In this document: positions 4,044 through 8,340 of the stretch, piece by piece
Layout: every line of letters starts with the position of its first letter
Position numbering within the stretch: position 1 is the first letter of the stretch
DNA from: an uncultured Hyphomicrobiales bacterium
GTDB taxonomy: Bacteria; Pseudomonadota; Alphaproteobacteria; Rhizobiales; Xanthobacteraceae
Assembly (NCBI GenBank): GCA_903839845.1
Contig: CAIMEA010000004.1
Span: 1-64,000 of the forward strand
Length of the DNA stretch: 64,000 bases
Reading direction: 5' to 3'
Notes under the pieces: model-generated
Told to the model about the DNA's origin: nothing
What the model saw: the letters and a program-made list of their open reading frames with translations, nothing else
The model's database searches: none
Translations under genes and position numbers: made by a program

Positions 4044-4760
4044 CTAAAGTGGCAACAAGGACGCGACAACCGCGTCCGGAACCGCGCCTAATTCGGCCTG
4101 AAGAGCTGCGAATTTGGCCGCAACCGGGGCAAACGACCGGCGGTGATGCGGCGTCGGGCCGAGGCGCTCCAGCGCCGCGCAATGTTCCGGCACGCTGTAG
4201 CCCATGTGGCGCTCGAAGCCGTAACCGGGATGCGCCAGCGCGATGCGCGCCATCAGCCGGTCGCGCGTCACCTTGGCGACGATGGAGGCGGCCGCCACCG
4301 ACAGCACCAGGGCATCGCCCGACACCACCGCCTCGCAGTCGCAGCCGCAGTCGATTTTCATGTTGCCGTCGACGAAGACCAGCTTCGGCCGCACCGGCAA
4401 GGCCCTGACCGCGCGCGCCAGCGCCCACAACGAAGCGCGCAGTATATTGTCGCGGTCGATGCGCTCGACCGCGCCGAAGGCGACCGATACTTGCGCGGTG
4501 GCGCAGATTTTCTCGTAAAGGGCTTCGCGCGCCTTGGCGTCGAGCTTTTTGGAATCGTTGAGGCCGCGCGGGATGCGCGCGGGATCGAGGATCACCGCCG
4601 CCGCGACCACCGGACCGGCCAAAGGCCCGCGGCCAGCCTCGTCGCAGCCGGCGACCGGAAAAATCCCGGCGTTGAGCGCCCGCCGCTCGCGCCGGAAGGT
4701 CGGGCGCAGCACGGGCTCTTTGAGCGGCAGGCGTTTGGCGGCTTGCGGTTTGCGGGCCAT
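4044..4760 (-). CDS. rnhB: Ribonuclease HII
   Basis: 238-residue cytosolic endonuclease that nicks RNA in RNA-DNA hybrids and removes single ribonucleotides from DNA. Motifs in order: [14 protein letters not shown] with D40 and E41 (catalytic acids), NDSKKL at 69-73, FVDGN with D131, [12 protein letters not shown], and [13 protein letters not shown] chose the ATG at 4760 because the upstream open frame has no family similarity. About 30 basic residues precede the catalytic fold, common in alphaproteobacterial RNase HII. Possibly co-transcribed with the membrane glycosyltransferase downstream. Intact. Confidence 0.95.
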
Positions 4761-4965
4761 GGTCGAGCAGTCGCCCGCGGCGGGGGCGAAGTCAACGGCT
4801 GTGATTTTGCGATGTGAAATCCGGGGATTGCGGCAGGCACGCGCGCCGTGGCGGCGCGATGATTCGCCGTTGTTTCCTTGTCCCGGCCGCCGGGATGGAT
4901 TAGTCGAGTTCAGGCGCGGAAACTGCGCCCGGAATAGCCAAGAACAGTCACCAGGGGAAACGCAC

Positions 4966-5940
4966 ATGCTCATTCGGTCTCAATTCCGGTTCGCGATGGC
5001 CGCGGCAGCGCTCCTGGTGTTCGCAAGTCCCGTGCGCGCGGCTGACCCTTACCCGGCCAGCAAGATCACGATGGTGGTCGCCTTCGCGCCGGGCGGCGTC
5101 GCCGATACCGTGGCCCGCTTCATCGCCCAGGGTTTGAGCGAACGTCTGCGGCAGAGTGTCGTGGTTGAAAATCGCGGCGGCGCCGGCGGCAATATCGCGG
5201 CCGCCGCTGTCGCTCACGCCGCGCCAGACGGCTACACGTTGCTGGCAACGACAACGGCCATCGCCATCAACGAGACGCTGCGCGAGGTGAAGCAATTCGC
5301 CGCGACCGATTTGACCACCGTGGCGATCGCCGCGTCGAGCCCGGAAGCGCTGGTGACGAGCCCAAACAATCCCGCCAACTCGCTCGCCGACCTGATCAAG
5401 GCGGCGCAGGCCAAGCCGGTCAATTTCGGCTCGGCCGGCGTCGGCAGCGGCTCGCATATCGAGGCCGAATATTTCTTCAAGATACTCGCGCACATTTCGG
5501 CGACCCATATTCCGTTCCAGGGCGGCGCGCCGGCGATGAATGCCGTTCTCGGCGACCAGATCGATGTCTGGGCGACGACATTGGGTGGCGGCGCGGCGGC
5601 GCAAATTGCCGCCGGCAAGCTCAAGGGCCTGGCCATCGCCGGTGACAGCCGCGCCGGCGTCGTGCCGAACGTGCCGACTTTTGCCGAGCAAGGGTATGCG
5701 AATTACGTCGCGGCCTCCTGGGTCGGTGTCTTCGCACCGGCCAAGACCGACCCGAAAATCATCGAGGCGCTGAATGCCGCGATCAACGACACCATCAAGT
5801 CGCCGGACATTCAGGACAAGCTGACCAAGATCGGCTTCGATCCGATGACGGGAACGCCGGCGCAAGCCGACGCCATGTTCAAGGCCGAAGTGGAAAAATG
5901 GGGCAAGATGGTCAGCGCGCTCGGCATCACCATCAAATAG
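4966..5940 (+). CDS. Tripartite tricarboxylate transporter-type substrate-binding protein (Bug family), orphan
   Basis: 324-residue periplasmic binding protein. A Sec signal peptide (basic start, then [16 protein letters not shown]) is followed by the Bug signature [23 protein letters not shown], in which the loop after beta-1 contacts a ligand carboxylate, and later by [10 protein letters not shown] and [19 protein letters not shown]. The start at 4966 has an AGGGGA ribosome site; the longer open frame upstream is a shadow of rnhB. No TctA/TctB membrane genes are nearby, so this is one of the many orphan Bug receptors, which may share a transporter elsewhere or act as a sensor. Ligand unknown, most likely a carboxylate. 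Confidence 0.9.
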
Positions 5941-5962: not shown

Positions 5963-6403
5963 CTAGGCCGGCAACGTCAGCCGGCCGTCTTCGGTGAGCG
6001 GAAAATCGGGATTGAACGCGACCTCCCAGAGATGGCCGTCGGGATCGAAGAAATATCCCGAATAGCCGCCCCAGAAGGCATCGACTGCCGATTTTTGAAT
6101 CGTCGCGCCGGCGCGATAGGCGCGGTCGATGGCCGCGTCGACTTCCGGTTTGGAATGGCAATTCCAGGCCAGCGACACGCCGCGAAACGCCGGCGACAGA
6201 TCCTTGAAGCCGATGCCGGCGTCCTTGGCCAGTTCTTCGGATGGGAAGACCGAAATAGCGCAGGCGCCGGCGAGGAAAAAGCCGACGCCCTCGACCGCCT
6301 GCGCCTTGCGCTGAAATCCGAGCGCTTCATAGAAAGCAATGCTGCGGTTCAGATCGGCAACGCCGAGCGTCACCAGCGACAGCACGGCTTGCGGGTCGTT
6401 CAT
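5963..6403 (-). CDS. VOC (glyoxalase/bleomycin-resistance fold) family protein
   Basis: 146-residue single VOC domain with the paired beta-alpha-beta-beta-beta arrangement. The N-terminus reads VTLGVADLNRSIAFYEALGF and the C-terminus YSGYFFDPDGHLWEVAFNPDF, matching glyoxalase-like proteins in which a late Glu (in HLWEVAF) is a metal ligand. The specific reaction is not evident; many members act on aromatic or thiol adducts. Its ATG overlaps the stop of the PA0069-type radical SAM gene by four bases (ATGA), so the two are translationally coupled and should share the SOS-type promoter upstream of that gene. Confidence 0.88.
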   Translation of the reverse strand: MNDPQAVLSLVTLGVADLNRSIAFYEALGFQRKAQAVEGVGFFLAGACAISVFPSEELAKDAGIGFKDLSPAFRGVSLAWNCHSKPEVDAAIDRAYRAGATIQKSAVDAFWGGYSGYFFDPDGHLWEVAFNPDFPLTEDGRLTLPA

Positions 6404-7620
6404 GAGGCAAACAGGCTCAGTTGTGCGTCATCTGGCTTGGGATGGCGGAAATGCTCGGTCGAGAGCTTCAGTTTCTTTTTGTTGAGGCCGAGCCTTTCGC
6501 AGGCGACCTCGAAACGCCGGCCGATCAGCCAGGCATAGGGCCCGGTGCCCTTCATGCGCTTGCCCCATTCCGAATCGTAATCTTTGCCGTCGCGCATGTC
6601 GCGGATCAGCTTGAACACATGCCGCGCACGGTCGGGATAATTCGTCACCAGCCATTCGCGGAATAGGTCGCGCACTTCGAGCGGCAGGCGCAGCATGACA
6701 TAGCCGGCTTCGCGCACGCCAACGGCCTGCGCCCGATCGAGGATACGTTCGATTTCGCTGTCGTTGAGCGCCGGAATGATCGGCGCGACCATCACCGTGG
6801 TCGGCACGCCGGCCTGCGCGAGCGCGCGCAAGGTTTCCAGCCGCCGCGTCGGCGTCGCCGCGCGCGGCTCCATCTTGCGCGCCAGTTCCGGATCGAGCGT
6901 CGTGATGGACAGCGCGACTTTGGCGAGATTGCGCTCGGCCATGCGGGCAAGAATATCGAGATCGCGCAGCACGAGCGCCGACTTGGTGACGATGCCGACC
7001 GGATGACCGGCGCGATCGAGCACTTCGAGAATGCGGCGCATGACCTTGTAGCGCCGCTCGATCGGCTGATACGGGTCGGTATTGGTGCCGATGGCGATCA
7101 CCTTCGGCGAATAGTTGGGCGACGCCAGCTCCTTGGCCAGAAGCTCGGCGGCTTCCGGCTTGACGAACAGCTTGGATTCGAAATCCAGCCCCGGCGACAG
7201 GCCGAGATAGGCGTGCGTCGGCCGCGCGAAGCAATAGACGCAGCCGTGCTCGCAACCGCGATAGGGATTGACCGAACGGTCGAAGCCGATGTCGGGGGAA
7301 TCGTTGCGGGTGATGATCTTGCGGGTGGCGTCCGCCTGCACCGTGGTCTTGAACGGCGGCAGCTCGTCGAGCGAGCGCCAGCCGTCGTCGAAGGCAATGC
7401 GCGCCAGAGGCTCGTAACGGCCGGAGGCATTCGACTGCGCGCCGCGGCCCTTGCGCCGCTCATGCTCGACGACGACGCCGAGCAGGCCGGTGGCGTCATC
7501 GACGCGAACGCCGCGCTCTGAATTTGCGACACCCGCCGGCGCAGAGGGCAGCTCCGTTACTCGGTCGGCAAAACCGGGTGACGCCGGCGGGCGTTTCAAG
7601 GCTGAAGTTGATCTAGCCAT
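6400..7620 (-). CDS. PA0069-family radical SAM protein (spore-photoproduct-lyase-like)
   Basis: 406-residue radical S-adenosylmethionine enzyme. The iron-sulfur motif RGCEHGCVYCF gives C123-X3-C127-X2-C130, binding a [4Fe-4S] cluster. Flanking blocks (PTHAYLGLSPGLDFE, GTNTDPYQPIERRYKVMR, KSALVLRDLDIL) are typical of the PA0069/Rv2578c group related to SplB. No reaction is established that I know of; DNA-lesion repair is a reasonable guess by kinship. The ATG at 7620 is 25 nt from a perfect alphaproteobacterial LexA box (7645-7659), which supports a DNA-damage role. Overlaps the VOC gene downstream by four bases. Confidence 0.88.
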   Translation of the reverse strand: MARSTSALKRPPASPGFADRVTELPSAPAGVANSERGVRVDDATGLLGVVVEHERRKGRGAQSNASGRYEPLARIAFDDGWRSLDELPPFKTTVQADATRKIITRNDSPDIGFDRSVNPYRGCEHGCVYCFARPTHAYLGLSPGLDFESKLFVKPEAAELLAKELASPNYSPKVIAIGTNTDPYQPIERRYKVMRRILEVLDRAGHPVGIVTKSALVLRDLDILARMAERNLAKVALSITTLDPELARKMEPRAATPTRRLETLRALAQAGVPTTVMVAPIIPALNDSEIERILDRAQAVGVREAGYVMLRLPLEVRDLFREWLVTNYPDRARHVFKLIRDMRDGKDYDSEWGKRMKGTGPYAWLIGRRFEVACERLGLNKKKLKLSTEHFRHPKPDDAQLSLFAS

Positions 7621-7644
7621 GGATTCAACCTAGTGAGCCAGAGT

Positions 7645-7659
7645 GAACATAACAAGAAC
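7645..7659 (-). promoter_or_regulatory. LexA-type SOS box before the radical SAM gene
   Basis: Reading the minus strand gives GTTC, seven bases (TTGTTAT), GTTC. This matches the known alphaproteobacterial LexA recognition pattern GTTC-N7-GTTC, with an AT-rich spacer as usual. It ends 25 nt upstream of the radical SAM start codon, a position suited to blocking RNA polymerase. It is also about 105 nt upstream of the divergent GT2 start, which might be affected too. Confidence 0.75.
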
Positions 7660-7764
7660 AATTTTTGAAAAACGCAAATTCGTCCACTAAATGCCCGATC
7701 TCGTGGGACGGAATTGAAATCCCACATGATATGGTGGCAACCCAATCCACAGGCCGGAAGTTCC

Positions 7765-8340
7765 ATGCTCAGCGTCGTCATTCCCACCCACGAATCGGAG
7801 CGCCTGCTGGTGCCGACCTTGGCCGCGCTGGTGCCAGGCGCGATGAGCGGGCTGATCAGCGAGGTGGTGGTGGCCGACGCCGGCTCGAGCGACGACACCG
7901 AACAGGTCGCCGACATCGCCGGCTGCCGGTTCGTCCGCATGGAAGCGCCTTTGGCGGCGCGGCTGCGCGAAACGGCGCGCGGCACCCGCACGCCCTGGCT
8001 GATGTTTCTGCGCGCCGGCTGCGTGCCGGAGCCGGGCTGGATCGAGGCGACCGAGAGATTTATTCAGGCCGCCAGCACCGGCGACACCCAGCGCGCCGCG
8101 GTGTTTCGTCCGCCCGGCGCCGCCGATCTGCTGCGGCCCGGACTGTCGGAACTGCTGACGCTGCTGCGTGTGATGCTCGGCGGCGGCGCCCGGCCGGAAC
8201 AGGGCCTGCTGATCGCGCGGCGGTTCTACGATGTACTCGGCGGCCACCCCGACGCCTCCGAGCCCGAGGCGGCGATGCTGAGAAAGTTGGGGCGGCGGCG
8301 GGTGACGATGCTCGGCGCCGGGGCGCGCACCGTAGGCTAG
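7765..8340 (+). CDS. Small GT2-fold glycosyltransferase-like protein
   Basis: 191 residues. The N-terminus MLSVVIPTHESERLL and then EVVVADAGSSDDTEQVAD are the nucleotide-binding blocks of family 2 glycosyltransferases. The region that normally holds the DxD metal motif reads WLMFLRAGCVPEPGW, without the expected aspartates, and the protein is shorter than most GT2 enzymes, so catalysis is doubtful. I start at the ATG at 7765, preceded by GGAAG, rather than at 7714. It is divergent from the radical SAM gene. Acceptor and pathway unknown. Confidence 0.72.
   Translation: MLSVVIPTHESERLLVPTLAALVPGAMSGLISEVVVADAGSSDDTEQVADIAGCRFVRMEAPLAARLRETARGTRTPWLMFLRAGCVPEPGWIEATERFIQAASTGDTQRAAVFRPPGAADLLRPGLSELLTLLRVMLGGGARPEQGLLIARRFYDVLGGHPDASEPEAAMLRKLGRRRVTMLGAGARTVG

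Follow-up and report, generated by a model that had tools for sequence, protein, structure and literature searches.

Within the window, that is, the whole 64,000-nt stretch of DNA analysed here, a gene for a 406-residue radical SAM protein lies on the minus strand at 6400..7620 and is preceded on the same strand, at 7645..7659, by the 15-mer GTTCTTGTTATGTTC. Read as GTTC-TTGTTAT-GTTC in the motif search, this 15-mer fits the alphaproteobacterial LexA operator GTTCN7GTTC, the consensus given in the relevant part of PMC12700426. The preliminary description had placed a perfect minus-strand LexA (SOS) box at 7645-7659, 25 bases from the start codon. The match at these coordinates is exact and so is the distance, the A of the ATG lying at 7620 (offset of 25 bases, 24 bases between). 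A second minus-strand site with one mismatch, TTTCAAAAATTGTTC (7656..7670), overlaps the box one 11-bp step upstream and is also present in five of the six closest relatives (loci L002-L007). Together the two sites form three half-sites in line, and locus L056 has a pair of perfect boxes, again offset by 11 bp. Overlapping sites stepped in this way possibly allow LexA to bind cooperatively.

Downstream, the stop codon of the radical SAM gene overlaps by 4 nt a minus-strand gene for a VOC/glyoxalase-like protein (5963..6403; PF00903, 61.6 bits), with which it is probably cotranscribed. Where the VOC gene ends, the minus strand carries a terminator-like hairpin followed by a T run (5966..5986; seven G-C pairs, tail TAGTTTTTCG), recognized by pattern match only. 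An opposing plus-strand ORF for a TctC-type receptor follows (4534..5940 as listed, its true start lying further in; PF03401, 217.9 bits), and beyond it rnhB, coding for ribonuclease HII (4044..4760, minus strand; NF000595, 231.8 bits for a cut-off of 167), which in relatives is usually the direct neighbour of the radical SAM gene. In the window, the VOC gene, the hairpin and the opposing gene thus part rnhB from the radical SAM transcript. On the other side of the box, a divergent glycosyltransferase-like gene (7714-8340, plus strand; related to TIGR04283 but below its cut-off) shares the same intergenic region and might also be influenced by the box. A similar divergent gene adjoins 45 of the 80 named loci (the best 80 of 595).

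Counting the motif was rejected as evidence in its own right, as neither the window nor the genome is enriched in it: the window holds 3 copies of GTTCN7GTTC, where shuffles give 2.11 +/- 1.61, and the 4.04-Mb genome holds 87, compared with 91 copies of the reversed pattern. In the same genome, boxes precede lexA (TIGR00498, 182 bits), recA (569 bits), ssb and parC (both over cut-off), as well as a fragmentary uvrA and imuA, which were identified by best match, below cut-off. With a weight matrix built from these six canonical boxes, the window site ranks 10th of 87, and fourth among the sites outside the training set. The weight-matrix check called for by the preliminary description was therefore useful but not decisive, the site not coming first. 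Other high-scoring boxes of this genome (C181:114276, C147:54192 and C236:1376; loci L069, L067 and L073) stand, as judged by eye, before genes for a 144-residue protein, a RecD-like helicase and a truncated DNA cytosine methyltransferase, which are candidate SOS genes.

The identical 15-mer has been characterized in Caulobacter, where the portion of PMC12700426 that describes it presents it as the LexA box of ccna_01391 and ccna_02355, two SOS genes induced early by mitomycin and whose expression is also altered in the absence of lexA. The likeness to the window resides in the box, identity with a PA0069-type gene being established in that portion for neither gene (PMC12700426). The box in the window is real and almost certainly functional, the conservation described below being decisive. 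The second of the two Caulobacter genes, ccna_02355, presumably corresponds to CC2272. The latter is described as a second nth (PMC1839093).

Conservation of the box was assessed at orthologous loci drawn from 60 relatives (56 with the gene), a phylum sample (57 of 150 over cut-off), a class sample (49 of 96) and the named loci, which, being the best 80 of 595, lean to close relatives and may overlap with the other genome samples. A uniform test covered, on the coding strand, the last 300 nt before the gene and its first 60 nt, with repeats removed; three repeat loci (L098, L099 and L108) were left out, and two further loci of the genus were dropped because contig ends cut off their upstream DNA. 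The preliminary description had chosen this comparison beforehand as one that could refute its reading. It did not do so, since a perfect alpha box stands at 190 of the 207 alphaproteobacterial loci, a set that includes the best 80 of 595 named loci. By group, the box is found in the organism itself (1/1), throughout the genus (33/33) and the family (4/4), in all 20 loci from other families of the order among the 60 relatives, in 10 of 13 further loci of the order, in 47 of 56 loci of the class, and in 75 of the 80 named loci (best 80 of 595). The class count is 48 when a 450-nt interval and both strands are searched, against 47 with the 360-nt interval and the coding strand. Seventeen of the 207 loci are devoid of a perfect box in this test, several of them carrying one in the right place that is one base off. 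Away from the gene start, at orthologue loci outside the named set, the exact alpha box occurs 0.007 times per 360 nt. Hence, although the bare motif is at chance level by count, its place and its conservation are far beyond chance. SOS control of the PA0069-type gene, as read from these promoters, is very probably near-universal in Alphaproteobacteria.

Applied to 21 loci of a different class within the phylum (presumably Gammaproteobacteria in the GTDB sense), this test returned no perfect alpha box (0/21). Instead, 13 of the 21 carry at the gene start a perfect CTGTN8ACAG, which we take to be the gamma LexA box; the other 8 are without a perfect box of this type. CTGTN8ACAG is found at none of the 207 alphaproteobacterial gene starts (uniform test), and its background away from the gene start is 0.0014 per 360 nt. 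Regulation retained through a change of operator is strong evidence for the action of LexA rather than for an inherited stretch of sequence, and it lends weight to the link between this gene and the SOS response that had been read from the window. From these promoter comparisons, we hold with high confidence that the radical SAM gene is under LexA control.

The alignment of the boxes also yields the likely architecture of the promoter. In a box-aligned profile of 154 sites from outside the genus, information is limited to the box itself plus some T/A bases directly beside it, the flanks being near zero, apart from a second peak at offsets 27-28 from the box. The spacer of the box is itself non-random, its first three positions reading TTG in most of the 154 sites. 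The pattern TAnnnT is commonest at offsets 26 and 27, with 22 and 45 occurrences among 156 sites; offset 33 has 15, and each of the other offsets from 15 to 49 has between 0 and 6. This -10-like signal is not an effect of the start codon, as it is strongest where the start codon is at least 60 nt away (of 65 such sites, 50 have the T and 51 the A). The aligned sites thus read as a -35 element (TTGnnn) within the box, separated by 16-17 bp from a -10 element. In the window, the putative minus-strand elements are TTGTTA (7650..7655), in the box spacer, and TAGGTT (7627..7632), 17 bp away, with the ATG 7 nt past the last -10 base. Transcription would start about at the ATG, possibly giving a leaderless message. 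A generic sigma-70 scan did not return the window promoter, whose geometry was read instead from the aligned profile. With this arrangement, LexA would cover the -35 element of the radical SAM promoter.

The encoded protein belongs to the PA0069 family of radical SAM proteins, as had been proposed: NF033668 scores 574.2 bits against a curated cut-off of 360, whereas the next-best models, for Rv2578c-type radical SAM proteins (NF038135, 237 bits) and radical SAM mobile pair protein B (TIGR04470, 102 bits), stay below their own cut-offs of 430 and 410, respectively. The cluster motif CX3CX2C (C123, C127 and C130) is invariant in two alignments (56/56 and 19/19). An AlphaFold2 model computed with 56 aligned sequences has a mean pLDDT of 77, with a confident core and a disordered N-terminus (residues 1-78 below 50). 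When this model is compared with VIA-align, the six best matches are all entries of spore photoproduct lyase (SPL), aligned over 269-272 residues at Z 19.6-19.9 with an rmsd of 3.3-3.4; the best reaches Z 19.9 over 269 residues (rmsd 3.3), and the next family follows at Z 15.3. Ranks 1-6 in Foldseek are likewise all SPL. The relation to SPL comes from the fold only, given that a PDB sequence search with the single protein (P0001) gave no credible match and that the search with the alignment returned SkfB as best match (E 0.005) and no SPL among its matches. The SPL family model TIGR04070 reaches 16.8 bits, far under its cut-off of 400, and TIGR03886, also of the SPL family, exceeds its cut-off in none of 40 relatives, with a single weak match.

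According to the part of PMC3742179 that deals with catalysis, SPL possesses four conserved cysteines, among which C141 (Bacillus subtilis numbering) is the likely hydrogen donor, and Y99 is a likely radical relay. In the PA0069-type proteins, no column outside the cluster motif is more than half cysteine in either alignment; the statement that the fourth conserved cysteine is absent rests on this lack of a further conserved column, in alignments that contain no SPL sequence. At position 131, the Y99 equivalent just after the third cysteine, Phe is found in 50 of 56 sequences and Tyr in 6, whereas Tyr129, the equivalent of Y97, is kept in 56/56. The enzyme therefore resembles the SPLs of Bacillus and Geobacillus in its nearly full-length fold, its CX3CX2C motif and the tyrosine before the third cysteine, and departs from them in the fourth cysteine, in the Phe that mostly replaces Y99, in a family HMM score far below cut-off and in its regulation, SOS control taking the place of sporulation control. 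The SPL gene is controlled by sporulation, and the lesion that SPL repairs is 5-thyminyl-5,6-dihydrothymine. The relation to SPL asserted in the preliminary description thus holds for the fold and fails for family membership and the catalytic cysteine; the protein, as modelled, is an SPL-fold radical enzyme that we do not file as SPL. Without the fourth cysteine and, mostly, without the partner tyrosine, its substrate or its hydrogen donor must differ from those of SPL.

A coupled VOC gene, induced by damage together with the radical SAM gene, had also been predicted. The 4-nt overlap supports coupling in this lineage, and co-induction is likely in this organism, where it would have a local meaning. 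As a general partner the VOC gene was rejected, since only 38 of 233 loci have it beside the radical SAM gene. The commonest real neighbour in the named loci (best 80 of 595) is rnhB, which lies just downstream and co-oriented on the same strand in 67 of the 80, and within 1.5 kb in 64 of the 80. Two genomes of one family (G087 and G200) have rnhB directly beside the radical SAM gene in convergent orientation, so that the adjacency survives inversion. Inspection by eye of the genes downstream in 24 loci of the other class and of the class revealed no repeated DNA-repair partner.

Overall, we consider it likely that the 15-mer is a LexA operator lying over the -35 element of a gene for an SOS-induced enzyme of SPL fold, most likely engaged in the direct repair of a DNA lesion. 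LexA bound to the 15-mer would block RNA polymerase at the radical SAM promoter; RecA filaments assembled on damaged DNA would trigger the self-cleavage of LexA; and the loss of LexA would switch on the radical SAM gene, here together with the overlapping VOC gene. The enzyme, with its SPL-like radical SAM barrel, would then most likely reverse a DNA lesion by radical chemistry. A LexA site kept in nearly all alphaproteobacterial relatives, and swapped for the matching site in many others, indicates that the gene probably serves DNA repair. That the enzyme acts on DNA directly is, judging from the model, probable in our view, a shared fold alone not establishing DNA as the substrate.

This last step is where the main competing explanation enters, according to which LexA control is real but the enzyme repairs no DNA, its role in the damage response being to modify some other substrate (RNA, a protein or a small molecule). 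The score below the SPL family cut-off, the missing fourth cysteine and the mostly missing Y99 equivalent would all agree with a non-DNA substrate, as would a barrel common to radical SAM enzymes of many functions and the presence of a VOC protein as one partner in this lineage. Against these points stand a near full-length match to SPL that lies about 4.5 Z above all other radical SAM families listed, the usual proximity of RNase HII, and the general composition of SOS regulons, which are dominated by DNA enzymes; on balance, we regard a non-DNA substrate as rather unlikely. That a short motif arose by chance in AT-rich intergenic DNA and was then kept by common descent would account for counts at chance level in the window and in the genome, but not for flanks that have decayed to background around a box that has not, nor for a different LexA motif at the same place in another class. 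The conservation data refute it, and the probability that we leave to it is negligible.

The box could alternatively serve rnhB, in which case selection would act on the SOS control of RNase HII, and the radical SAM gene would simply come first in that operon. The two genes lie on the same strand within 1.5 kb, rnhB downstream, in 132 of the 230 loci with at least 700 nt of downstream sequence, and in Escherichia coli RNase HII is reported to act on, and remove, ribonucleotides left by the error-prone polymerase V (PMC3493448; PMC3820734). A damage-induced RNase HII would thus be sensible where the genes are adjacent. However, no coding-strand box precedes rnhB in any of 16 unlinked cases from genomes with the radical SAM gene elsewhere (those, among 30 loci, judged not to be near that gene), nor in any of 29 genomes lacking the radical SAM gene, a count that leaves out the window's own rnhB (L290). 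In two of these 29, a match does lie upstream, at 383 and 494 nt, but in reverse orientation. Moreover, the hairpin and the opposing gene isolate rnhB in the window, and loci of the other class keep the gamma box without an adjoining rnhB. As the sole reason for the box, rnhB is largely refuted by the lone copies, and we judge this explanation very improbable. The box accordingly belongs to the radical SAM gene, and rnhB would be linked to SOS by position only, if cotranscribed; a link of rnhB to damage is nonetheless probable in many Alphaproteobacteria, judging from gene order.

SOS control of splB-like radical SAM genes is, as a kind, already known, and the association of a radical SAM gene with DNA damage, correctly perceived in the preliminary description, is therefore not new in itself (PMC3323433; PMC8565304; PMC7739468, in the passages that concern these genes). 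A comparative study of 2012 (PMC3323433, section 8) predicted such control of splB for alpha- and beta-Proteobacteria and stated that it had not been seen in Gammaproteobacteria. As here, that section reports a LexA box before the gene of an SPL homologue in Alphaproteobacteria and stresses two LexA motifs in two classes; unlike here, it restricts the case to species with several chromosomes, and it contains no promoter geometry, residue test or rnhB neighbour. We infer that this splB would be a member of the PA0069 family, which is helped by the failure of TIGR03886 to exceed its cut-off in any of the 40 relatives. The pertinent parts of PMC8565304 and PMC7739468 place splB/COG1533 radical SAM genes in the SOS regulons of Bacteroidetes, Gram-positives and Balneolaeota: the same broad radical SAM group is repeatedly found under LexA-type control with unrelated DNA motifs, although in other phyla and with other operators. 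A radical SAM gene of Streptomyces venezuelae is bound by LexA (ChIP) and induced by mitomycin, and SplB-like genes are mentioned beside SOS domains (PMC9380542 and PMC3765255, respectively). A literature search on PA0069 together with SOS found no paper. PA0069 reportedly figures in the Pseudomonas aeruginosa SOS regulon, as Cirz et al. are said to have described in 2006. In Mycobacterium tuberculosis, Rv2578c is under LexA. What is new here is the assignment to the PA0069 family, the breadth of the control in Alphaproteobacteria and the finding of a gamma box in 13 of the 21 loci of the other class. The geometry of the promoter, the absence of SPL's donor residues and the proximity of rnhB are likewise additions.

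So far, the PA0069 family carries no name beyond that of a hypothetical equivalog. An SOS control that is near-universal in Alphaproteobacteria, and retained across a change of LexA motif in another class, indicates that its job would belong to the DNA-damage response; the SPL fold points to the kind of chemistry involved, and the missing donor cysteine sharpens the question of which lesion and which hydrogen donor are at play. The frequent rnhB neighbour suggests in turn a damage-inducible RNase HII in many Alphaproteobacteria, a subject on which a literature search found no paper for these bacteria. More tentatively, and with odds that we consider low, the two enzymes could form a two-step SOS unit of Alphaproteobacteria, in which a LexA-controlled enzyme of SPL fold, directed at a lesion other than that of SPL and devoid of a cysteine donor, would be made with RNase HII, the two acting on the damage or the ribonucleotides that remain around the tracts of SOS polymerases. 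Such a unit, if real, would be a hitherto undescribed direct-reversal pathway in growing cells. Downstream of a PA0069-type gene, rnhB is often followed by a gene for a CcrM-like methyltransferase.
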